This document shows, piece by piece, positions 54,330-64,000 of a stretch of 64,000 bases of DNA (position 1 is its first letter; every line of letters begins with the position of its first letter). The DNA comes from Neolewinella agarilytica (GTDB lineage Bacteria; Bacteroidota; Bacteroidia; Chitinophagales; Saprospiraceae), in contig NZ_FOFB01000005.1 of assembly GCF_900110645.1 (NCBI RefSeq), forward strand, positions 124,001-188,000, in the 5' to 3' direction. The translations under genes and the position numbers were made by a program. The notes under the pieces were generated by a model, which saw only the letters and a program-made list of their open reading frames with translations, was not told where the DNA came from and made no database searches.

Positions 54330-54665
54330 ATGACCGAAGATGGCAACGTACTCATTACCGTAGTGGATCGTCACGGTGAAGCTCACGAACTGGAAGCACC
54401 GACGGATATGAACATGAACCTCATGGAGGTTTGTAAGTCCTATGAGCTACCCGTAAAAGGTACCTGCGGGGGTATGGCGCTCTGTAGTACCTGCCATTGC
54501 TACGTACTGTCAGAAACGGCATTGCCCGAAATGGGAGAGGACGAAGAAGACATGCTTGATCAGGCTTTTTTCGTGGAGGATAACTCCCGTCTTGGCTGCC
54601 AGCTACGAATTACGGAGGCACTGGACGGCCTGCGGGTTCAACTGGCACCGGAAGCAGATGATTAA
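54330..54665 (+). CDS. Adrenodoxin-type [2Fe-2S] ferredoxin
   Basis: A 111-aa electron carrier. Cluster ligands are Cys46, Cys52, Cys55 and Cys90 (GTCGGMALCSTC; RLGCQL), the C-x5-C-x2-C spacing of vertebrate/ISC-type ferredoxins, with an acidic partner-binding stretch (EMGEDEEDMLDQ). It is likely involved in Fe-S cluster assembly or electron supply to oxygenases; partner unknown. Its stop lies 26 bp before the tRNA promoter. Confidence 0.93.
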   Translation: MTEDGNVLITVVDRHGEAHELEAPTDMNMNLMEVCKSYELPVKGTCGGMALCSTCHCYVLSETALPEMGEDEEDMLDQAFFVEDNSRLGCQLRITEALDGLRVQLAPEADD

Positions 54666-54690: not shown

Positions 54691-54720
54691 TTTGTAGTCT
54701 CAGAATTGTCTATATCTTTG
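54691..54720 (+). promoter_or_regulatory. Promoter of the initiator tRNA gene
   Basis: TTTG (54691-54694), 18-bp spacer, TATCTTTG (54713-54720): a full match to the Bacteroidota consensus TTTG-N18-20-TAnnTTTG. The tRNA begins 72 bp later. Confidence 0.8.
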
Positions 54721-54792: not shown

Positions 54793-55167
54793 CGCGGGGT
54801 GGAGCAGTTGGTAGCTCGTCGGGCTCAAGATTGTAACTTAAAGGGTCGCTTAGCGACTTTGAATCATACCTACTTAAGTGATTCGCTGATCTAATCAGAC
54901 TTTAAGCTTGCTTGGGCTGCTATGGAAGAAACTCCATAGTGAATTTCATCAAATTCGGGGAAGCCTTTAGTATGGTAATCCCGAGCCAAGCCTTGTTCTT
55001 CGGAACTCGGAAGGTGTAGAGACTTAATGGTGAACACCGTAGTATTAATTTACCGGTGAAGAGAAAGTCCAGACCATCAAATCCGTCATAATTCGTTGAC
55101 GGGCGTAGCGAAAGCTATAGTGGTACGCATAACCCGAAGGTCACAGGTTCGAGTCCTGTCCCCGCTA
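54793..55167 (+). tRNA. Initiator tRNA-fMet (CAT), interrupted by a group I intron
   Basis: Exons 54793-54825 and 55128-55167 join into a 73-nt cloverleaf: acceptor CGCGGGG with CCCCGCT, D stem GAGC/GCTC, anticodon stem TCGGG/CCCGA around CTCATAA, T stem ACAGG/CCTGT. Three consecutive G-C pairs in the anticodon stem (GGG/CCC) and the unpaired 1-72 position (C with T) are the marks of initiator rather than elongator tRNA-Met or tRNA-Ile2. CCA is not fully encoded; the gene is followed by CA only. The break lies between U33 and C34, just before the anticodon. The 3' exon end doubles as the attachment site of the integrated element. Confidence 0.96.
54826..55127 (+). ncRNA. Group I intron (IC3-like) in tRNA-fMet
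   Basis: 302 nt, no ORF. P1 pairs the 5' exon and intron start (GGCT then CAAG, 54822-54829) with CTTGGGCT (54911-54918), leaving the diagnostic U-G wobble at the splice site (54825 with 54915). P2 is 54920-54926/54933-54939. P4 is CGGG (54956-54959) with CCCG (54980-54983). P6a has a TTCG tetraloop (54995-55006). P7 is GACT (55021-55024) with AGTC (55066-55069). P8 is CACCG/CGGTG (55035-55039/55054-55058). P9 is 55083-55088/55097-55102, and a GAAA-capped stem follows (55106-55117). The last base is G (55127). Core strings GAGCCAAGCC, CGGAAGGTG and AAGAGAAAGTCC recall cyanobacterial tRNA introns. Self-splicing is expected. Confidence 0.95.
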
Positions 55168-55169
55168 CA
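55154..55169. repeat. attL: 16-bp direct repeat at the tRNA 3' end
   Basis: TCCTGTCCCCGCTACA, covering the T-stem end, acceptor strand and discriminator base. It is repeated exactly at 63830-63845. Confidence 0.93.
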
Positions 55170-55185
55170 ATTTTTTTATTTTTTC

Positions 55186-55230
55186 AAAGGGCTAAACTAT
55201 TGACTTTCAATGGTTTAGCTCTTTTTTTTT
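55186..55230 (+). terminator. Element-borne terminator behind the tRNA
   Basis: AAAGGGCTAAAC (55186-55197) pairs with GTTTAGCTCTTT (55213-55224, one G-U) and runs into nine or more T. It sits just inside the left end and replaces the terminator displaced to 63849. Confidence 0.85.
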
Positions 55231-55302
55231 GCCTCCTTTTGCAATGGCTTTTGCGCAATACCTGCTACAAAATGAAAAAAGACCAAAAAAAAGTCAAAAA
55301 AA

Positions 55303-55326
55303 CCGTGCCGGAGTAATCCGACACGG
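55303..55326 (-). terminator. Terminator of the element's leftward operon
   Basis: CCGTGCCGGA pairs with TCCGACACGG (one mismatch, GTAA loop). Read leftward it is followed by TTTTTTTGACTTTTTTTT. It lies 33 bp past the last element gene and shields the tRNA. Confidence 0.85.
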
Positions 55327-55358
55327 CAAAAAACATCCTGAAAATGATTGGCTTCTAC

Positions 55359-56039
55359 TTACTCATCAAATGCACGGTAGTTTGTCCTCACCATGTTTAG
55401 CCCTGAATCGTCTACAATGAAGGTCGGCTCATCCAGGGGGTGGGGGCCTGCTGGCTTGACTTTGACCAGGCCGGAGAACATAATGTTCGCGCCTGTCGTC
55501 AAATCTGCCAAAGAAACGATGTTCGCACCTGCTGACTGATTGCGAGCGTTTGCCAGGTTAACCAGGCGTTCAGCACTCCGGTAAAGCTCTGCATCTGCAT
55601 CAGTAGCGGCGCGTACTTCGGCACGTTCCATGATGGCGGCGCGTTCATCGGGGGTAATGGGGGGCGGGGTGAATTCATCCTTCCCATATCGCTTAGGGTC
55701 TTCGCTAACGGGGTAACAGTCGTTAGCTACCTCAATAAGTGCTGTAAGCTCTTTTGGGTAAAAGAAAGCGGTTGTAAGTGCGCTGTCTCGTACTGGCAAA
55801 TCCTGATAACCTGAATAGTCTAACCATAGACGAACGGCTGCGCGTTCAGTATCGTCAGCATGGTTTCCAGCTGTCAAAAGTTTGTCCATCATATACGGCG
55901 TTGCGGCCTTGCCTTCTGTTAGGGGGGTTATTGCATCGTGTAGCCTCTGAAGGTTCCCGGCTATTTCCTTACGACGTTCTGCCAGGGCGGTGAGTTGTGC
56001 TTCTGCCAGGTCCCGGCGGCGGTGAATGAGTACACTCAT
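55359..56039 (-). CDS. Element protein of unknown function
   Basis: A 226-aa soluble protein. The first 60 residues are helical and charged (RRDLAEAQLTALAERRKEIAGNLQRL), possibly coiled coil. The middle is rich in Ala/Glu (TPDERAAIMERAEVRAATDADAELY), and the C-terminus is less regular. No motif recognised. It is the last gene of the leftward run and starts 17 bp after its upstream neighbour. A structural or scaffold role beside the S49 peptidase is possible but unsupported. Confidence 0.6.
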   Translation of the reverse strand: MSVLIHRRRDLAEAQLTALAERRKEIAGNLQRLHDAITPLTEGKAATPYMMDKLLTAGNHADDTERAAVRLWLDYSGYQDLPVRDSALTTAFFYPKELTALIEVANDCYPVSEDPKRYGKDEFTPPPITPDERAAIMERAEVRAATDADAELYRSAERLVNLANARNQSAGANIVSLADLTTGANIMFSGLVKVKPAGPHPLDEPTFIVDDSGLNMVRTNYRAFDE

Positions 56040-56056
56040 AGTTTGAACTTATTTGG

Positions 56057-56488
56057 TTAAGAAATTTGTTTCACGCTCCCGGAATTGATGGATACCAGGT
56101 AGCGAAGTATTCGTTCATCTTTTATTAGTTCCTCTGCTGTGTAGCGGGTGCCCCTGATCTTCAGGGCGGGCGCTGTCAGCTGGTAACTAATACCTTCCAG
56201 CTCAAAAACACAACGGCTTAAAACGTCCTCGCTAATGACACGTTTTGCGGCGTAATACTTTTGATTTGGGAAGTAATACTTCTCTTCTCCGTCCCATTTT
56301 TTCGCGTCTACTTCAGCGATAAATTTTTTCGCTGCCAAAACATCAGGGCTTAGGGTAATGGGGGCGGGTTCAGCTGGGGGCGTGTCTTCCTGGGGAAGTA
56401 GTTGTTCTGTCAGGTGTTCAAGGTCTTTAAGACGTTCGTCAGCGTCTACGATAGCCTTTTCCACATGGGGTAGTTTGTTTTCTGTCAT
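56057..56488 (-). CDS. Element protein of unknown function
   Basis: A 143-aa protein. An N-terminal helix and acidic-proline linker (LPQEDTPPAEPAPITL) precede a compact domain (KFIAEVDAKKWDGEEKYYFPNQKYYAAKRVI). No family recognised. It lies 43 bp downstream of the S49 gene and 17 bp before the last gene, so it is part of the same transcript. Confidence 0.55.
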   Translation of the reverse strand: MTENKLPHVEKAIVDADERLKDLEHLTEQLLPQEDTPPAEPAPITLSPDVLAAKKFIAEVDAKKWDGEEKYYFPNQKYYAAKRVISEDVLSRCVFELEGISYQLTAPALKIRGTRYTAEELIKDERILRYLVSINSGSVKQIS

Positions 56489-56531
56489 GGGGGTAATTTA
56501 TTGAGCTGTCACGGTGGCCAGCTGGTGAGAA

Positions 56532-57536
56532 TTATTTTTTGCGTCCGGCTAATGAAGCGGATATTTTTTGCGACATCGGAGTATTGAGGTAAACCCGCTT
56601 ACCTGGGTTTGCCTGGGGTGTTGTGGATCTGCTTTGAAGACGTGCAACGCGGCCAGGGCGCTCTTTAAACTTCAGGCAATGGTTAATCCAGATCAACGCT
56701 TTTTGATAGCCGCCAATGTCATCTATCAAGCCCCGTTGTTTTGCTTCGGCTGCCATGAACATTTCGCCCGACAACGTGCCGTTAACGTCTCCCTTTAGAA
56801 TCCTGTGTTCTTTGACTGCTGCCAGGAACATCTTATTTACCTGGTTAACCTTTTGGGTTAATGGCTGGTAATCTCCTCTTAGGGCTGATCTGTGTGCGTG
56901 GTTCTTCTTAGTTGACTTGTCAGCGTAGATTGTGAGGTACCTGGTACGCTCAACTTCAGCTGCAACCTTATCAACTTTCAGCATAGTGCCAATGCTTCCA
57001 ACCTCAACACCTGGCGAGCTTGCGACGATCTTATTAGCCGGTAGTGTTCCCATGATGGCAGCACTTGCCATGAAGTGAGTAAACACAACTACCGGCTTAC
57101 TCATTCCCTCAATCGTTGCTGCTAACATCTGGCCAGCTGTGACCATTCCACCACCACTATTTACTTCCAGCAGTACGGCGGCTATATTGGGGTTACTGTC
57201 GGCGGCGGTCAGCTCGGCGGTAAGGTGGTTTACTCCTCTGATCCAAAGAAAGTCCTGGGACAACATTAGCCCGGTCAGCTGAAGGTGAGCGATTGACTTT
57301 TTAGGGGTGCTGCTGCTGTTGTTCAGGTTCACCTGAACACCTCCGGCGGGGCTCCCGCTGGCACTCATCAGGCGGGCTGCTACGGCTTCCCGGCGGCGGT
57401 CTATTTCCGCTCCGGTGATGGTGTTCGCCAGGGTAGATAGTTCACTCTCAAACGCTTGCCAGTAAGCAGGTGAGACGGCCAGCGGTTCACCTTTTAGGCT
57501 GGTAATCAGTTGGTTAAGTTGTAAGTTGCTTCTCAT
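56532..57536 (-). CDS. S49 family serine peptidase (phage protease/SppA-like)
   Basis: A 334-aa protein with a ClpP/SppA crotonase-like core. IAAVLLEVNSGGGMVTAGQML (near 118-138) is the substrate/oxyanion strand, Ser158 in FMASAAIMGT is the probable nucleophile, and SSPGVEVGSIGTM follows. A Lys for the Ser-Lys dyad would lie in YADKSTKKNH (about 205-215). There is no signal peptide or membrane helix, unlike cellular SppA. Such soluble forms process capsid or scaffold proteins in phages, and they also turn up on small integrative elements. No capsid gene is recognisable here. Confidence 0.85.
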   Translation of the reverse strand: MRSNLQLNQLITSLKGEPLAVSPAYWQAFESELSTLANTITGAEIDRRREAVAARLMSASGSPAGGVQVNLNNSSSTPKKSIAHLQLTGLMLSQDFLWIRGVNHLTAELTAADSNPNIAAVLLEVNSGGGMVTAGQMLAATIEGMSKPVVVFTHFMASAAIMGTLPANKIVASSPGVEVGSIGTMLKVDKVAAEVERTRYLTIYADKSTKKNHAHRSALRGDYQPLTQKVNQVNKMFLAAVKEHRILKGDVNGTLSGEMFMAAEAKQRGLIDDIGGYQKALIWINHCLKFKERPGRVARLQSRSTTPQANPGKRVYLNTPMSQKISASLAGRKK

Positions 57537-57728
57537 ATAACATCAAATTTTAGTGGTTTCTGTCCCAAAAAAAGCTAATCCGCGCACTAAGCGTTAGGCT
57601 GCTTTATTTGTTAAAGTTACTTTTTTGTTTCATAAGTCATTATTTAACAGCGTTTTAAACATTTAAATAATAAATTTTGAAATTTTGGTTTGTCGACGAT
57701 CTGAAGCCGTTTTTGTAGCGTGTTTTTT

Positions 57729-59393
57729 TTACAGTAGTGGAGCGACACTTGCCAGTTCTCCGGTCTGGTGGTTCAGGGGTTGAAAACTACCGTAAGCCTC
57801 TATTAGTGCCTCATACCAGCACCTCCCTTTAAAGAACTTACTCAACTCTCTCTCCTCAAGTCGCGCGCGGCGGGTTAACGCTGTCTCGATGTTTTCAATC
57901 TTCCCTTGCATCCAGCACCATAAATTATTTTTTTCAGCAATAGAGGCGGCGGTTTGTAGGTGTTCAATAATCCCTGCATCAGTTGTCGAGGCTTCAGCGC
58001 GAAGGATAAGCGACTTTACAATTATCCTCTCCATACGGTCCGACTTAACCGGGGCCGGAGTTTGTCTTTTGTACTCTGACTTTTTGACCTGGGAAAAGTC
58101 TACAACCGTCACTCGCTGCCGGCGGTTACGTTTGCTATCGGTGCTGTTCGCTGGCACCCAATCAAACCAACCGGAAAGGGCTTGTTGCCCAATAGCTACC
58201 ATCTTTTCACGGTCGAACAAGTCGCGCCAATCAAAACCAACTAAGGTTCTAAAATAGTCACCTTTCAACTCAACCTCCAGACGTGCAACGGTGTCCTCGA
58301 TACCGTTAATCTTGTGAAATTCTGAAATGTATTCTTTCTTAGATGTTTCCAGCTCTTTAGTCTTATTGTAGCAACGAACAAACCTACCGGCTGATCGGCT
58401 CCCAAAACTGAAGCCTTCTATTTCATCAGTCGCCAGGCTAACATACTTTTTTGCCTTATGGTAAGCGCTCTGTCGGACGGCCTCAATGTTACGGTCATGG
58501 ACGGCGTTCAAAAACGTCATCAGGCCGGGGCTATCAAATGCAATGTCTGCCCGGAATGGCTTAATGACATTTGAGTTTAAAGCCTTTACGGGATTATCAA
58601 CAATAGCCTCCCGGCTTAGCGTCGTATCGTAAAGTGTAGAGTTGGTAATTTCCAACTTCGCGGAGCCTTCTAAACTGGATTGCCTTGCATCCCAAAGCAC
58701 ATTTGCAACGTGTACTCCTCGCGTCCATACTGAAGCCTTCCTCCCATAAAGTTTACCTCCGGTGCCTTGTTCATGAAAGTAGTATTCTCCGGCCTTGTGT
58801 AGCCCGTCTTTATCAAATTCCATAAAGGGAAGATCTCCTTCAGTTATTTTTAAAGCCATTGTATCCAGTTGGGCTAATGTCTTTTGTCCATAGCTAGTAC
58901 CACAGGCTGAAGACGGAACCGGGGCGGCGTAATCGAGCGGGCAATCCGCGAAGGTTTGCAGCTGGTTAGCAACGGTGGCAGCGGCTTCGGTCATCTTCGC
59001 AATGATAGCTCCATCATCAAGCGCCCGGTTCATCTGAAACACCAGGCTACCAGGCCGGTCTTTCTGGTTCCATCGGACGGTTGATATGTGTTTCCCTCTT
59101 AGGGTTAAATAAGCCTTCCGGCCATCGTCACCGTATCGGGGTGCTACTCTTTCCAGCTGGTATGGGGGAAAATCGACTACATAGTTAGTGGCGAAGTGCG
59201 CATCTAAAGCCGTGAAGACTCTCTCCGGTACGGTGGACGTTAGGTAAAGGGCTTTAGGCTTCGTGGGGCCATTGTCCACTTTTATCGCGTTATACTCGGC
59301 GCGAAGATTAGGCGGGGTAGTATCGGAGGTGTTGCAGAATTTTGCTAAATCCAATACCTTTACCACATTGTTTATTGAATCGTGCGAAAGCAT
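57729..59393 (-). CDS. Rep_trans-like replication initiator
   Basis: A 554-aa protein. The central section (about 310-375) has the replication initiation factor pattern: FSFGSRSAGRFVRCYNKTKELETSKKEY leading to ARLEVELKGDYFRTL. The GSR...R-x-Y-x-K-E and R-x-E-x-x-x-K-G spacing matches pT181-type Rep and the NicK relaxase of ICEBs1. The Tyr in RCYNK or a nearby Tyr would be the nicking residue. The N-terminal 300 residues are not recognised and make it longer than typical members (about 300-400 aa). It probably nicks the element's origin for rolling-circle replication after excision. Confidence 0.7.
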   Translation of the reverse strand: MLSHDSINNVVKVLDLAKFCNTSDTTPPNLRAEYNAIKVDNGPTKPKALYLTSTVPERVFTALDAHFATNYVVDFPPYQLERVAPRYGDDGRKAYLTLRGKHISTVRWNQKDRPGSLVFQMNRALDDGAIIAKMTEAAATVANQLQTFADCPLDYAAPVPSSACGTSYGQKTLAQLDTMALKITEGDLPFMEFDKDGLHKAGEYYFHEQGTGGKLYGRKASVWTRGVHVANVLWDARQSSLEGSAKLEITNSTLYDTTLSREAIVDNPVKALNSNVIKPFRADIAFDSPGLMTFLNAVHDRNIEAVRQSAYHKAKKYVSLATDEIEGFSFGSRSAGRFVRCYNKTKELETSKKEYISEFHKINGIEDTVARLEVELKGDYFRTLVGFDWRDLFDREKMVAIGQQALSGWFDWVPANSTDSKRNRRQRVTVVDFSQVKKSEYKRQTPAPVKSDRMERIIVKSLILRAEASTTDAGIIEHLQTAASIAEKNNLWCWMQGKIENIETALTRRARLEERELSKFFKGRCWYEALIEAYGSFQPLNHQTGELASVAPLL

Positions 59394-59742
59394 GAAACAT
59401 TAATTTTGGCCCCGTTGGACGGCAATCCGGCGGGGCCTTTTTAGGCTCGCGCGGGGCGGTTATTGTTTATTGAGGCCTATTGGCCTACGTGCTGCCTGGG
59501 TGCGATCATGACGGCAATCAATTACGCGGGCGGATTCTCTGACGTCGGAGCGGGCGTTGCATCCCGTCTAACATGAACCTTTTTATGAGCCATCTAAGCC
59601 ATAGCGTGACCAGATGAGGGAAAAGCGTGGTTGGGCTGTCAGCACGTCAGCAATGGAGGCTGACAGCCCGTCACGCATTAGGATGAGTGGCACCACATCG
59701 GGAAGGTTCAAAACCCTGAATGGTGCCTCTCATATCATTACT
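59394..59742. other. Non-coding gap upstream of rep with hairpins, candidate origin/copy-control region
   Basis: 349 bp. A rightward terminator-like hairpin (GGCCCCG 59408-59414 with CGGGGCC 59431-59437, then TTTTTA) lies 15 bp from the rep start and points against rep, as an antisense RNA terminator would. A perfect 11-bp stem, GGGCTGTCAGC (59633-59643) with its complement (59659-59669), has a 15-nt loop. AGGCC-TATT-GGCCT is a smaller palindrome near 59473. Rolling-circle origins usually lie at such cruciforms near rep. Confidence 0.5.
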
Positions 59743-60042
59743 CTATTCCATACGGTTAGCTAGTCGGGTTAGCTCTGTATCTGGTATCAGTACACGGGTG
59801 CCGATAGGTATACACTTTATAATTCCGTCTTTCCGGTACTTGTCAAGCGTTTGAACGGTAACCTTGAGTTTGTCCGCTACTTCTTCTCTAGTATAAAAGA
59901 CTGGCTCATTCTTAGCTAGGTTTATACTTTTCATCGCTTCGGCGTGTGCTTTCTCTGCTGCCATCTCTGCCACCATTTCTAATACAGGGGTCATTGCCTC
60001 TGTAATATCCAGATACAATCTTGGGGGGGAAGACTTACTCAT
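59743..60042 (-). CDS. Helix-turn-helix (excisionase-type) protein
   Basis: From the ATG at 60042 (99 aa), placed one base after the RHH stop; an ATG three codons earlier overlaps it. The C-terminal half (VFYTREEVADKLKVTVQTLDKYRKDGIIKCIPIGTRVLI) is a MerR-like winged helix of the excisionase/AlpA type, with the final strand recognising DNA. On integrative elements these proteins direct excision by the recombinase or regulate replication. Coupled to the RHH gene. Confidence 0.85.
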   Translation of the reverse strand: MSKSSPPRLYLDITEAMTPVLEMVAEMAAEKAHAEAMKSINLAKNEPVFYTREEVADKLKVTVQTLDKYRKDGIIKCIPIGTRVLIPDTELTRLANRME

Positions 60043-60043
60043 T

Positions 60044-60223
60044 TTATACAATTTTGGTCGTTATAGAAATGGCAACGCCGTTGCGCTGAAGCTCCTCTCT
60101 AATTAAGTCACGGACTAAAGAGGAAACTGTTTCTCCTCTCGCTTCTGCCATGTTTTTAAGTTCGTCCATAACAGGCACATGAAGCCGGAGCCCTAAATGT
60201 GATTTGTTCAAATTATTATCCAT
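60044..60223 (-). CDS. Ribbon-helix-helix small regulator
   Basis: A 59-aa protein. LGLRLHVPVMDELKNMAEARG followed by ETVSSLVRDLIREEL is a classic ribbon-helix-helix pattern (short strand, helix, turn, helix) of the Arc/CopG/MetJ kind. Such dimers repress rep or partition genes on plasmids. Its stop lies one base before the HTH start. The direct repeats at 60344-60395, upstream of its start, are a plausible operator. Confidence 0.8.
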   Translation of the reverse strand: MDNNLNKSHLGLRLHVPVMDELKNMAEARGETVSSLVRDLIREELQRNGVAISITTKIV

Positions 60224-60573
60224 GTCAATGAGTTTTACTTATTTGTTTAACGCAAATATGGGGGCCTAAATGTCTAAATACAAAATGTGTGATCTTTGAG
60301 AGGCTTCGACTTTTCAAACAAAAAAGCGGTTTTTCGTAGGCTTGTGTAACACTACGGACCGCAAGCCGTAACTTAGTGTAACACTGTGGTCCGCAGTAGT
60401 TTATGTTTTTATAAAATCGCTAATGTTTTCGTCACTTTAAAAGCAAGTACCATATTTCAGAAAATGTTTTAAATTGTTTTCGCCTGTTTTCTTTTGAAAC
60501 ATTCGGCTCGATATTTTTTTTCACTTTTTTTTTGGCGGTGGCCATTTTTTGAGCTGACCACCACCAAAAAAGA
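60224..60573. other. AT-rich gap with 20-bp direct repeats
   Basis: 350 bp with no gene. It is AT-rich and holds two direct repeats described separately (60344-60395). It should contain the promoter for the RHH-HTH-rep genes, read leftward. Confidence 0.5.
60344..60395. repeat. Two 20-bp direct repeats (candidate operator/iterons)
   Basis: GTGTAACACTACGGACCGCA at 60344-60363 and GTGTAACACTGTGGTCCGCA at 60376-60395 match at 17 of 20 positions, 32 bp apart (three helical turns). Each contains the near-palindrome GTGTAACAC and a GG(A/T)CC centre. Confidence 0.75.
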
Positions 60574-60777
60574 CTATCCGTCGGCTCGATTATTCAATAC
60601 CTGCTCCCTTATTTTCTCCTCAAGCCATCCGTGAAGGCACTTAGCAGAATACTCCCTAACAGCCATATCAAATTCAGGATTGACGACGGCGGCGGCGGTC
60701 GACATTAAATCTTTCAGGGTCCAATCCTTAAAAGATGGCCGGGGGCCGTTCTCGTTTGGTTCTATTGTCTTACTCAT
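60574..60777 (-). CDS. Small element protein, unknown
   Basis: A 67-aa acidic-to-neutral protein (SFKDWTLKDLMSTAAAVVNPEFD, AVREYSAKCLHGWLEEKIREQ). Mostly helical by eye, no motif recognised. It lies 78 bp after the membrane protein gene on the same strand; an accessory role in the element is all that can be inferred. Confidence 0.5.
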   Translation of the reverse strand: MSKTIEPNENGPRPSFKDWTLKDLMSTAAAVVNPEFDMAVREYSAKCLHGWLEEKIREQVLNNRADG

Positions 60778-60855
60778 AAGTATAGTGTTGTGGCAAATGA
60801 AGTGTTACTCATTGCCAGGTGAAGCCGTTCCGATATTGGGCGGCAAATAGTTCTC

Positions 60856-62295
60856 TTACTTTTCTGTCAGGGCCTTGAGTAGTCCTTCGTAATGCTCAAC
60901 CCATTGCCTGTTATTTGCTATCGCTTCAGCAGTCCGGGCCTTTACTTGTCCGTCCTTACGTAGCTGTGCGCTGGCTTTCTGCTGGTGAGCGCCTAGTCTC
61001 TTACGGTACTGCATAAGACGTGAGTAAGCCTTCTTTGTTTCAGGGTCTTGCTGTGTGGCGTTCGTGTGTCCACGTACCTTGTCTCGCGTGTGTGTGGGGG
61101 GTGTGTTTTGTGTGTTAAAGGTCGCACGCGGTTTGTGTGTGTGTGGGTCTTCAGCGGCTTGATAGAAGCGGGGCTCCGTCTTGGTGTGTGATGATACTAA
61201 TGGCGGGGCATCTTCTATCGGTTCAGCTCTGGTATCAGTCCAGAATGAAACATAAGGCAAGTCTTTCTCCAGACGGTCACGGGTGCCGAAGACATAAGCC
61301 ATTAGACGGCGGGCTCCTCGTTCTACTCTGTGACTAAAGACGGCTTTGAAGTCAGACCATACTGAAGGCAGCGCGTGGAACTCATTCGGTTCTATTTCTT
61401 CGGCTATCTCGCTCCCGGCCTCTATCTGTAATATGAGATAAAACAAAAGATAGAAAATCAGTTGGCCCGCAAATGTCAGGGCGGCAAATATCCATCCGGT
61501 ATTCTTCGCTTCGCTCTCTACCAGGGCGGCAGCTTCGGCGGCTTCAGCTGTTGCCAGGTGGTTAGCATCGTCACGGGCTTTAAGGGCTTCAGATAGAGCC
61601 TTCCCGCGTTCGGTGGCAATGGTTGCAGCGGTGGCGTTATAGGCGGCTTCAGCGGCGTCTATTTCTGCCAGTATCGCACGGCGTTTTTTCTTGCACCACT
61701 TGTTGCCACGGTCAGCACAACCGGCGTAATCTTCAGCGGCTTTCTCTCTATTGGATTTGGTGGCGTTGAATTGCTGAAGGGCGGCGGCGGCGCGGATCTG
61801 GTAAGGCGCGAATAGCACGGCGGTATCAGCTGCAAAAGCTAGTTGCAGGCTGTCCAGGTTAGCCGGTGGTGCTTCGTCTGTGATGAGCTTCCCGGCATCC
61901 ATACTTCCCATAAAAGAGAGGGCGAAGGATAGAACACCAACCAGCAATAAACCGGCACGGCTAAAGCGGGTGACTAACTTGTGACGGTGTTGTTTTTCAG
62001 GGTCTTCAGAGAACTGATTCTTAACGACCCATGGCCGTATTGATGGCCGTGCAAGTTTCCGGTTCGCCAGTTCAATAAATATGCCAATCAGTATTGCGGC
62101 GGTCACTATTCCCGTACTGGCAACACTTATTCCTCGTCCGGCGATTGCGTCAGATAGCAAGGTAAAAACTGCTAACGATAGCGAAGCCGCGGAGAGTAGT
62201 TGACCGATGTTTGCAATGGTGTAATAGGCTGGTAAGTGTCCACCGTGTTCGTTATAAAATGCCCGGTGTTTGGGCGTAGTCTGAATTTTACGCAT
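60856..62295 (-). CDS. Four-helix membrane protein with central coiled coil
   Basis: A 479-aa protein. Three hydrophobic helices lie in the first 130 residues (SLSLAVFTLLSDAI; STGIVTAAILIGIFIELA; GLLLVGVLSFALSFMG). A periplasmic Ala-rich coiled coil follows (about 150-265, with CADRGNKWCKKKRRAILAEID holding a Cys pair), then a fourth helix (IFAALTFAGQLIFYLLFYLIL). The C-terminal 190 residues are cytoplasmic, proline- and Lys-rich. It lies directly downstream of the integrase gene. I do not recognise it; a conjugation-, egress- or exclusion-related membrane role is conceivable. Confidence 0.65.
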   Translation of the reverse strand: MRKIQTTPKHRAFYNEHGGHLPAYYTIANIGQLLSAASLSLAVFTLLSDAIAGRGISVASTGIVTAAILIGIFIELANRKLARPSIRPWVVKNQFSEDPEKQHRHKLVTRFSRAGLLLVGVLSFALSFMGSMDAGKLITDEAPPANLDSLQLAFAADTAVLFAPYQIRAAAALQQFNATKSNREKAAEDYAGCADRGNKWCKKKRRAILAEIDAAEAAYNATAATIATERGKALSEALKARDDANHLATAEAAEAAALVESEAKNTGWIFAALTFAGQLIFYLLFYLILQIEAGSEIAEEIEPNEFHALPSVWSDFKAVFSHRVERGARRLMAYVFGTRDRLEKDLPYVSFWTDTRAEPIEDAPPLVSSHTKTEPRFYQAAEDPHTHKPRATFNTQNTPPTHTRDKVRGHTNATQQDPETKKAYSRLMQYRKRLGAHQQKASAQLRKDGQVKARTAEAIANNRQWVEHYEGLLKALTEK

Positions 62296-62377
62296 TTTTG
62301 TAAAAGTTTACTGTTAGTAAATAGCCCCGTTCCCGTGATCGTCTGCCAGGACAATTTGCACGGGTTCGGGGCGTTTT

Positions 62378-63655
62378 TTATGCTGGCTGCCAGTTCGCCA
62401 GGTTTAGCGCAGGGCTGTGAATTGTTTTTACCGTTTCGGCTTTCTTTAGCTCTATATACTTCTGAAAAACAGATTCCGTCTTGTGTCCGGTGATCTGCAT
62501 AATTGGATAAGCAACTCCGGTTGCCTCATACATATTAGAGGCAAAAGATTTGCGCCCTGAATGGCTACTAACATAGTCCGCTTTCAAGGCAGTCTCTTTT
62601 ACCGTATTACCTCCTTCAGAATAAACACGCGTGAAGGTGGCCTCTGGTATTGCTTCTCGACATACTTCTTTTATCAGTCGGTTGAAGTACGCAGGTGCGA
62701 TCCGGGGCAACTTGTAGTTATATTTCTCGAAGATGTTTTCCACCTGGGGCACTACCGGGATAACTACTGCCGTCATCGTCTTACTCGTGACCAGTTGCAA
62801 AGTAGTTTGCCCGTCTTTCTCGTGAAAGTTTGCACGGGTAATGCCGTACCAGTCGCTAATACGCAGACCTGTCCAGGCTGCAAAGATCATCAGGTCGCGG
62901 GCTTTATCCATTCCGGGCCGGTCTGATAAATCAAGATGCTCGATAGCATAAAGTTCGGGAACTGTAAGTCTTACTTTGCAGTTGGTAGACTGTCTACGAA
63001 TAATAAATTCTCTGTCCTCTTGAATAGTATTCATATGAATTTTTTTACGGTAAGCGTCTCGCATTACCTGTCTTAGTGCAGCCATTAGTTTGGCGGCGTT
63101 GTTGTTAGCAAAATTGCGGGGGGGGGCATACATCCATGCCGTAAAGTCATCTTTAAACTGATAGTCAAATTTGCTCCAGTCAAGCTCTTGCTTAGTGTCT
63201 TTCTCAAACTCTTTCAGGTGACGTTGCAGGGCCTCAAATTTGCCCCAACTGGTACGGGTCTTACCTGGTGTGTCTTTTCTGAGGGCAATGAAGGCAGACA
63301 AGTATCCGTGGAAGTCTTTTGGCATTTCGCCGGGCCGGTCTTCAGCTCCGACACGGTAAAGAACTTCTTGTTTAAAACCTTCATTCGTCAGCGTCTCGCC
63401 TACTTCGCGGAATAGCTGGTGAACAACATCTTCCCACTTTTGTAAGGAACTTATAATGCGCTCCACATCATTCCGGCCTCTTAGCGATCTTTTAGGGCTT
63501 TGCTTCCTATTATCCCACTCCGAAGGCTTTATGTACATTTGCAGCGATATTGATACACGTTTGCCTCGATAGCTAAACCGAACGTTAATAATCCCTCCTT
63601 CAGTGATATAAAAATTGGGGGTAGGTGGCCTCCGGCCTGGATTGCGTTTTTTCAT
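62378..63655 (-). CDS. Tyrosine recombinase/integrase
   Basis: A 425-aa phage-type integrase of the Bacteroidota family: N-terminal Arm/SAM-like parts (VSISLQMYIKPSEWDNRKQ) and a catalytic domain with Arg265 (WTGLRISDWYG), Lys near 292 (SKTMTAVVIP), His365 and Arg368 (SSHSGRKSFA), His391 (ITGHKTESVFQKY) and the nucleophile Tyr400. All catalytic residues are present. It recombines the tRNA-fMet 3' end with the element's attP. It lies 174 bp from the right att repeat. A TACCTTTA box 4 nt before the ATG suggests a leaderless mRNA. Confidence 0.96.
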   Translation of the reverse strand: MKKRNPGRRPPTPNFYITEGGIINVRFSYRGKRVSISLQMYIKPSEWDNRKQSPKRSLRGRNDVERIISSLQKWEDVVHQLFREVGETLTNEGFKQEVLYRVGAEDRPGEMPKDFHGYLSAFIALRKDTPGKTRTSWGKFEALQRHLKEFEKDTKQELDWSKFDYQFKDDFTAWMYAPPRNFANNNAAKLMAALRQVMRDAYRKKIHMNTIQEDREFIIRRQSTNCKVRLTVPELYAIEHLDLSDRPGMDKARDLMIFAAWTGLRISDWYGITRANFHEKDGQTTLQLVTSKTMTAVVIPVVPQVENIFEKYNYKLPRIAPAYFNRLIKEVCREAIPEATFTRVYSEGGNTVKETALKADYVSSHSGRKSFASNMYEATGVAYPIMQITGHKTESVFQKYIELKKAETVKTIHSPALNLANWQPA

Positions 63656-63659
63656 GCTG

Positions 63660-63667
63660 TAAAGGTA
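63660..63667 (-). promoter_or_regulatory. TACCTTTA -7 box of the integrase gene
   Basis: On the minus strand TACCTTTA-CAGC-ATG: the same box and the same 4-nt spacer as mazG (TACCTTTG-CAGC-ATG). Confidence 0.55.
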
Positions 63668-63829
63668 TTGTTGTGCCTTTCATATATGCAATAGTCGGCA
63701 CTATTCAACTACCTGTATAACAGTCATTTAGGCAAAAGCAATATATTCATTAAAAAAACACATATACATAATGCGCTGACAAGACAACTTTTTATACATA
63801 ACGGCTTTAACACAATCAAGGGCGGCTAT

Positions 63830-63845
63830 TCCTGTCCCCGCTACA
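63830..63845. repeat. attR: 16-bp direct repeat
   Basis: Exact copy of 55154-55169 (TCCTGTCCCCGCTACA). This is the original tRNA 3' end, now cut off from the gene. Confidence 0.93.
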
Positions 63846-63848
63846 TTT

Positions 63849-63888
63849 AAAGCCGTCTTTGACCTGTGGTCATTGACGGCTTTTTTGT
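63849..63888 (+). terminator. Probable original tRNA-fMet terminator, displaced
   Basis: AAAGCCGTC (63849-63857) pairs with GACGGCTTT (63875-63883) with an inner TGACC/GGTCA stem, then TTTTTTG. It begins 4 bp past attR, where the terminator of an uninterrupted tRNA gene would lie. Confidence 0.85.
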
Positions 63889-63922: not shown

Positions 63923-64000
63923 ATGGACACTAAGCTGAAGGGAGATATCGCAGAACATGCAACAATACTTTATGCACTTACTCAGGGCTGGGGAGTGTTA
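63923..64000 (+). CDS. Start of a PD-(D/E)XK endonuclease-like protein (group I intron-associated type), partial
   Basis: Only 26 codons are in the window: MDTKLKGDIAEHATILYALT then QGWGVL. The pattern M-x-T-K-x-K-G-D-x-A-E followed by a helix and G-x-x-V-L resembles the N-terminus of the PD-(D/E)XK family that includes the homing enzyme of the Synechocystis tRNA-fMet intron. The Glu in this first helix is part of the fold's conserved core. The catalytic residues lie past the edge, so the call rests on the N-terminus and on position: before the element inserted, this gene began about 80 bp after the intron-containing tRNA-fMet. Free-standing relatives are widespread, so a homing role is inference. 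Confidence 0.55.
   Translation, partial: MDTKLKGDIAEHATILYALTQGWGVL

Follow-up and report, generated by a model that had tools for sequence, protein, structure and literature searches.

How does a bacterium start translation when the gene of its initiator tRNA is interrupted by a group I intron, and by what route did such an intron come to stand in a Bacteroidota chromosome? These questions are raised by a 64-kb stretch of DNA, hereafter the window, from a genome of Lewinella/Neolewinella type (6.22 Mb, completeness 100).

The split tRNA-fMet gene and its intron fold

The tRNA-fMet(CAU) gene occupies positions 54793-55167 of the forward strand and consists of exon 1 (54793..54825), which ends at U33, a 302-nt intron (54826..55127) devoid of an internal endonuclease frame, and exon 2 (55128..55167). 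The exons were delimited by sequence reading and ARAGORN, and the splice boundaries, which place the intron between U33 and C34, by exon joining and P1. Once joined, the exons form a tRNA-Met(CAU) with a normal cloverleaf in ARAGORN, and the insert matches the Rfam family RF00028 (54881-55091) at 68 bits (gathering score 50, E 4.2e-15), the sole Rfam family above its gathering score in the 64-kb window. The tRNA-fMet of a Bacteroidota genome is confirmed to be split by a group I intron, and a first-pass annotation of this DNA had the gene, its coordinates and the length of the insert right; the Rfam comparison was its own suggestion.

ARAGORN finds zero tRNAs in the 64-kb window without the intron option, and with introns allowed it labels the split gene Leu(CAA), because CA is present at both intron edges. 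For the same reason three splice registers yield an identical tRNA, and only the register with U33 before the intron and a terminal G fits the usual group I rule (U before the intron, G at its end), as printed in an excerpt of PMC11915505. In this register U54825 pairs with G54915, and G55127 is the last intron base. A terminal G is found in all 80 split genes compared besides that of the window, being partly fixed by the exon search pattern. Upstream of exon 1, a promoter-like site on the same strand (54691..54720) was recognized by eye, with TTTG (54691-54694), 18 bp and TATCTTTG (54713-54720), presumably resembling the Bacteroidota promoter consensus.

Further analysis revealed the helices of a group I fold, all on the forward strand. 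A pairing search placed the 5' strand of P1, GGCU/CAAG, across the splice site (54822..54829, the slash marking the site), and we read the internal guide CUUGGGCU (54911..54918) as its partner, with G54915 facing U33; a first reading with the guide near 54850 was given up in favour of this one. An automatic P1 finder came back empty for many of the rows compared (mostly cyanobacterial) and pointed to sites in the endonuclease gene in others, and in both kinds of row the guide was taken from the alignments by eye. P2 forms a hairpin at 54920..54939, followed by P3 (54945-54950 with 55029-55034), which encloses P4, P5 and P6, by the guanosine-binding helix P7 (55021-55024 with 55066-55069) together with P8 (55035-55058), and by P9 (55083-55102) and P9.2 (55105-55118). 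The P1 with a U-G pair, P2, P4, P7, P8, P9 and terminal G of the first-pass annotation are all present, and the helices from P3 to P8 were found. The intron may be akin to the Anabaena tRNA-Leu intron, and may thus belong to subgroup IC3.

Covariation was evaluated over 38 core pairs (P2, P3, P4, P5, P6, P7, P8 and P9.2, with P9 outside the set) in 29 fMet introns, giving 1,102 cells, 98.8% of which are paired. Changes on both sides occur in 19 of the 38 pairs (158 cells), and none of 500 shuffles reached these pairing and covariation values; when the partner was shifted by 1 to 3 columns, pairing dropped to only 31-45%. The count of further pair types is not above shuffles (247/500). All seven pairs of P2, four of six in P3 and three of five in P9.2 changed on both sides, and three of five in P8 covary. 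P4 is devoid of covariation and P7 never varies and is always paired in the 29 introns, so both helices rest on conservation; the pseudoknotted P3-P7 core combines a covarying P3 with an invariant, paired P7. GGGC precedes P2 in all 29 aligned introns, a conservation that is not independent because the motif itself was used to set the start of each relative's row. The folding energy of the 375-nt strand lies 3.35 sd below that of its shuffles, 1 of 100 of which is as low.

Initiator tRNA genes in the genome and its relatives

The first-pass annotation held that splicing would be essential if no second fMet gene existed, and called for a genome search. In the 6.22-Mb genome, that search returned no second canonical fMet gene and only two half matches, both from the split gene. 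The tRNA census, in which 150 of 249 candidates were scored, yielded at least 49 Rfam tRNA matches, and ARAGORN read 48 tRNAs, three with CAU, in the 30 stretches holding the 49 matches. The split gene is the only canonical fMet found in the genome, and splicing should be needed for normal initiation because an intact canonical copy was not found. The annotation's premise stands for canonical copies, but a divergent initiator-like CAU tRNA read by ARAGORN is present on the minus strand (G000:C27:518210-518283; L199 685-758), inside an array of six tRNAs flanked by chromosomal genes.

Might the split gene be silent, and this divergent tRNA initiate translation instead? Its first base is unpaired and its D arm is fMet-like. 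However, its anticodon stem has four pairs and lacks GGG:CCC, which marks initiator tRNAs; a like copy occurs in 3 of 21 congeners, and among the eight congeners with a split fMet gene it is found only in the present genome, being absent from the other seven. Moreover, the exons of the split gene are whole and its intron core covaries. We therefore give a silent split gene a very small probability, and the split gene is likely the genome's only initiator tRNA.

The same genome has a second group I intron, in tRNA-Leu(UAA) (L002 983-1792; G000:C27, about 63,460-64,270; 52.5 bits), which apparently likewise follows U33 and carries an HNH endonuclease frame of 161 aa; the 48 tRNAs read include no intact copy of Leu(UAA).

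Comparison within a genus sample of 21 genomes, among them Lewinella sp. JB7 (G003) and Neolewinella lacunae (G005), revealed an fMet gene in 19, split in eight and intact in 11; the two genomes in which none was seen are 55% complete, in some 880 contigs. Both forms share one locus, with the same upstream ferredoxin-like gene (54330-54665) in 18 of 18 congeners compared, and alignments of the window against the intronless G014 and G004 are interrupted exactly at the insertion.

RF00028 matched in 17 of 60 relatives examined, and ten further split fMet genes were placed among those loci. The top score among the relatives (85.6 bits) belongs to L005 (G050:C167:817-1046), where no tRNA is visible to ARAGORN. 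Other tRNA group I introns in relatives (L023 G034, L009 G021, L008 G023 and L015 G046) split an Arg(UCU) gene, a gene that reads as Ile2 or Met (CAU) by eye and as Gln in ARAGORN, and two Leu(UAA) genes, the latter two at a different place of the loop.

A pattern scan for split fMet genes returned at least 114 stretches, 67 with a complete split gene and the remainder being other tRNAs, tandem arrays and cut contigs. In total 81 distinct split genes were compared, 80 from loci among the matches listed and that of the window. The intron starts with CA in 79 of these 80 and with CG in one; since the pattern requires CA and then a non-T after U33, the scan does not show this start to be general. 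Spread via phages or plasmids found no backing: with the same pattern, viral contigs gave one stretch, an unsplit tRNA with one extra loop base, phage records gave 16 remote matches of <38% identity, and plasmids gave none.

The endonuclease gene and the integrated element

A separate gene on the forward strand, encoding a 140-aa endonuclease, starts in the window at 63923..64000 and continues beyond it (L027:1424-1846). It is therefore not intron-encoded, for the intron holds no such frame and the gene begins outside it. The protein matches PF11645 with 153.6 bits (cut-off 26.1) and PDB 2ost with 189 bits; the entry is titled 'Putative endonuclease', and we take it to be I-Ssp6803I. NCBIfam gave no match for the endonuclease. 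A protein search returned 2,144 relatives, some of which carry the NCBI name 'group I intron-associated PD-(D/E)XK endonuclease'.

Between the split tRNA and this gene sits an integrated element of 8,676 bp from repeat to repeat (55154..63845), identified by its repeat, its integrase and its flanks against congeners. A repeat search located two forward-strand copies of the 16-bp repeat TCCTGTCCCCGCTACA, the left one (55154..55169) including the tRNA 3' end and the right one at 63830..63845. The tyrosine integrase is encoded on the reverse strand (62378..63655; PF00589, PF13102, PF17293; phrog_1), and integrase and repeat together are those of an element that targets tRNA genes. Other genes encode a replication-initiator-like protein (Pfam below cut-off, phrog E 3e-9), a head-maturation-protease-like protein (phrog E 1.7e-36) and an HTH protein, and the element may be a phage satellite or a small prophage. 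To its right follow a terminator-like hairpin with a T-run (63850..63886, forward strand, by eye), the endonuclease gene and then the downstream ferredoxin-like gene of the congeners (L027 1913-2254), which lies near the locus in 8 of 18 congeners. Congeners have a similar hairpin directly after the tRNA, and this one is probably the former tRNA terminator. The element has thus parted the endonuclease gene from the split tRNA, the two being now about 8.7 kb apart, a separation that should weaken joint transfer.

Among the matches listed, and with broken copies counted, the 81 split genes have the endonuclease inside the intron in 22 cases, outside in 25 and without trace in 34. Inside copies sit in the P1 loop of the intron, and no locus of the 81 has both an inside and an outside copy on the same strand within 3 kb. 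Outside copies occur in 11 of 31 Bacteroidota rows, 14 of 34 Cyanobacteriota rows and none of 16 rows of other phyla among the matches listed, the phylum of some rows, including one without rank, having been assigned by us. Besides that of the window, 21 of 24 outside copies begin 47-216 nt past the tRNA; the other three (L143, L148 and L166) lie 507-1,188 nt away, so another insertion may be present there.

In a sample of 199 genomes of the family, 18 have a match: eight within the intron of an fMet gene (one of these at a contig end), seven beyond a split fMet gene, one beyond an intact gene, the window's own and one remnant without placement. In 16 of the 18, the endonuclease lies inside or beyond fMet in the fetched locus, and the window is the 17th when the element is allowed for. 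The copy beside an intact fMet gene in G236 is a pseudogene with four in-frame stops, whereas in its congener G033 the intron is present and the endonuclease frame at the same place is open, and the two loci align at 74-75% up to and after the insertion. Within the genus, endonuclease traces are found at five of eight split and none of 11 intact loci (Fisher p 0.005, kinship uncorrected). A case that speaks against the pairing is the draft G210, in which an intact fMet gene coexists with a split one whose endonuclease frame is open; since the two contigs correspond to a single G121 locus, the draft may be a mixture. A phylum sample of 395 genomes added one endonuclease match, shortly after a split exon 1, for which the exon pattern found no exon 2.

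Mobility, origin and known systems

We consider it probable that this group I intron belongs to a mobile family, and that its I-Ssp6803I-type endonuclease was a separate gene that was later displaced. The precursor tRNA-fMet would be transcribed, and in two steps started by guanosine the 302-nt intron would cut itself out and leave U33 ligated to C34. In P1 the guide (54911-54918) is predicted to bind the last bases of exon 1 together with the first of the intron; the same guide bases could next hold C34-A35 of exon 2 as P10, a pairing that would account for the CA with which intron and exon 2 both start. The most likely target of the endonuclease is the conserved anticodon region of intronless fMet genes, and repair of the break would copy the intron, plus the endonuclease gene when it lies directly downstream. 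In the window genome, the separate endonuclease gene was then presumably moved by about 8.7 kb, by the element at the tRNA 3' end.

As an alternative, the intron might be an immobile relic kept by descent, with nearby endonuclease genes as functionless leftovers. The 34 of 81 split genes without endonuclease trace, the several broken copies and the clustering of the eight congeneric introns would suit such a relic; indeed, with three of the eight split genes in the genus among those without a trace, simple inheritance may by now be all that maintains many copies. However, 17 of the outside and 13 of the inside copies have open endonuclease frames, all seven chosen pairs of such frames differ most at third codon positions, and the intron is missing at the same locus in 11 of 19 congeners. 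Furthermore, inside and outside copies are intermixed in the endonuclease tree (35 rows, 18 of them outside copies, 8 of 32 inner branches starred), where the place needs seven changes, one of which is forced by starred branches alone, and a single clade of outside copies was rejected (p-AU 0.0005). On this evidence we think a relic unlikely.

The other alternative, a recent arrival from cyanobacteria, was close to the lateral transfer put forward in the first-pass annotation, and the gene, the site and the endonuclease family are indeed all shared with cyanobacteria. The tree with cyanobacterial fMet introns that the annotation proposed was built from the intron core by a quick method (81 rows, 13 of 78 inner branches starred). 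Against such an import, the row of the window falls not among cyanobacteria but within a starred set of eight Bacteroidota rows, all congeners (98), its nearest row being G007 (94%), and because of this congeneric cluster a recent import is not supported. Moreover, 28 of 31 Bacteroidota rows are apart from all 34 cyanobacterial rows, a split with weak support (77) in this quick tree. We accordingly hold a recent cyanobacterial import to be very improbable. Over the core tree, cyanobacterial rows need two changes and Bacteroidota rows five. One row from Desulfococcaceae falls within Bacteroidota (90) and one from Acidobacteriota next to a Bacteroidota row (100), which is consistent with lateral transfer or with misbinning of drafts. 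Members of the intron family occur in many phyla, and lateral moves between phyla within it are likely.

Beyond the favoured reading of a mobile intron with a displaced endonuclease, we tentatively raise a possibility that we regard as rather doubtful, namely that in two bacterial phyla an essential gene hosts a two-part homing and addiction unit made up of the intron and a separate downstream endonuclease, and that the endonuclease has switched at least twice between the P1 loop and the downstream position. The enzyme would then cut every intronless fMet gene, the intron would be the only protection, and its loss would be survivable only after the death of the enzyme. If this holds, the locus family would show mobile introns assembling or decaying in living chromosomes. 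Cultured hosts such as Neolewinella lacunae and Nostoc could show how endonucleases and introns form mobile units.

In the excerpts covered by our literature search, neither an fMet intron of Bacteroidota nor a split tRNA gene followed by an endonuclease gene was described, and an earlier mention of the outside layout is possible. The available part of a 2014 review places tRNA group I introns in cyanobacteria and in alpha- and beta-proteobacteria (PMC4033280). According to an excerpt on tRNAscan-SE 2.0, which names Gloeobacter and Synechocystis for fMet, an fMet or Ile2 gene was missed in 36 genomes owing to such introns (PMC8450103); a split fMet gene likewise accounts for genomes where tRNA finders, like ARAGORN here, miss fMet altogether. 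The introns of tRNA-Leu(UAA), Arg(UCU) and Ile2 in other bacteria also interrupt the anticodon loop of single tRNA genes, and one sulfur bacterium has both its Arg and its Leu gene split (PMC4853749), but they lie in other tRNAs, and the passages available report no I-Ssp6803I-type gene with them (PMC4853749, PMC8450103). The tmRNA introns share the group I type, a tRNA-like gene and even the bacterial family, one site being special to Saprospiraceae; by contrast, they are sited in the T-loop, and those bearing endonucleases have LAGLIDADG genes, as far as the excerpt describes them (PMC11915505).

The layout resembles collaborative homing in phages, in which an ORF-less intron is accompanied by a free-standing endonuclease targeting the insertion site (excerpt of PMC3984707). 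In both, an ORF-less intron interrupts the host gene and the endonuclease has a separate gene next to it, and besides the window 24 loci among the matches listed have this layout; however, the host gene here is a chromosomal tRNA gene rather than a phage protein gene, and cleavage is predicted. A close counterpart in gene and enzyme is the fMet intron of Synechocystis, the one fMet intron with an endonuclease in the available part of a 2007 table (PMC1995217). Compared at the level of the gene, exact site aside, the two have in common the gene, the group I intron and the endonuclease family (the 2ost match), whereas here the host is a Bacteroidota, the endonuclease is a gene of its own outside the intron, and an element lies between them. 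Altogether, with congeners carrying and lacking the intron at one locus, the known cyanobacterial case broadens to a many-phylum family of probably mobile introns that target the initiator tRNA.
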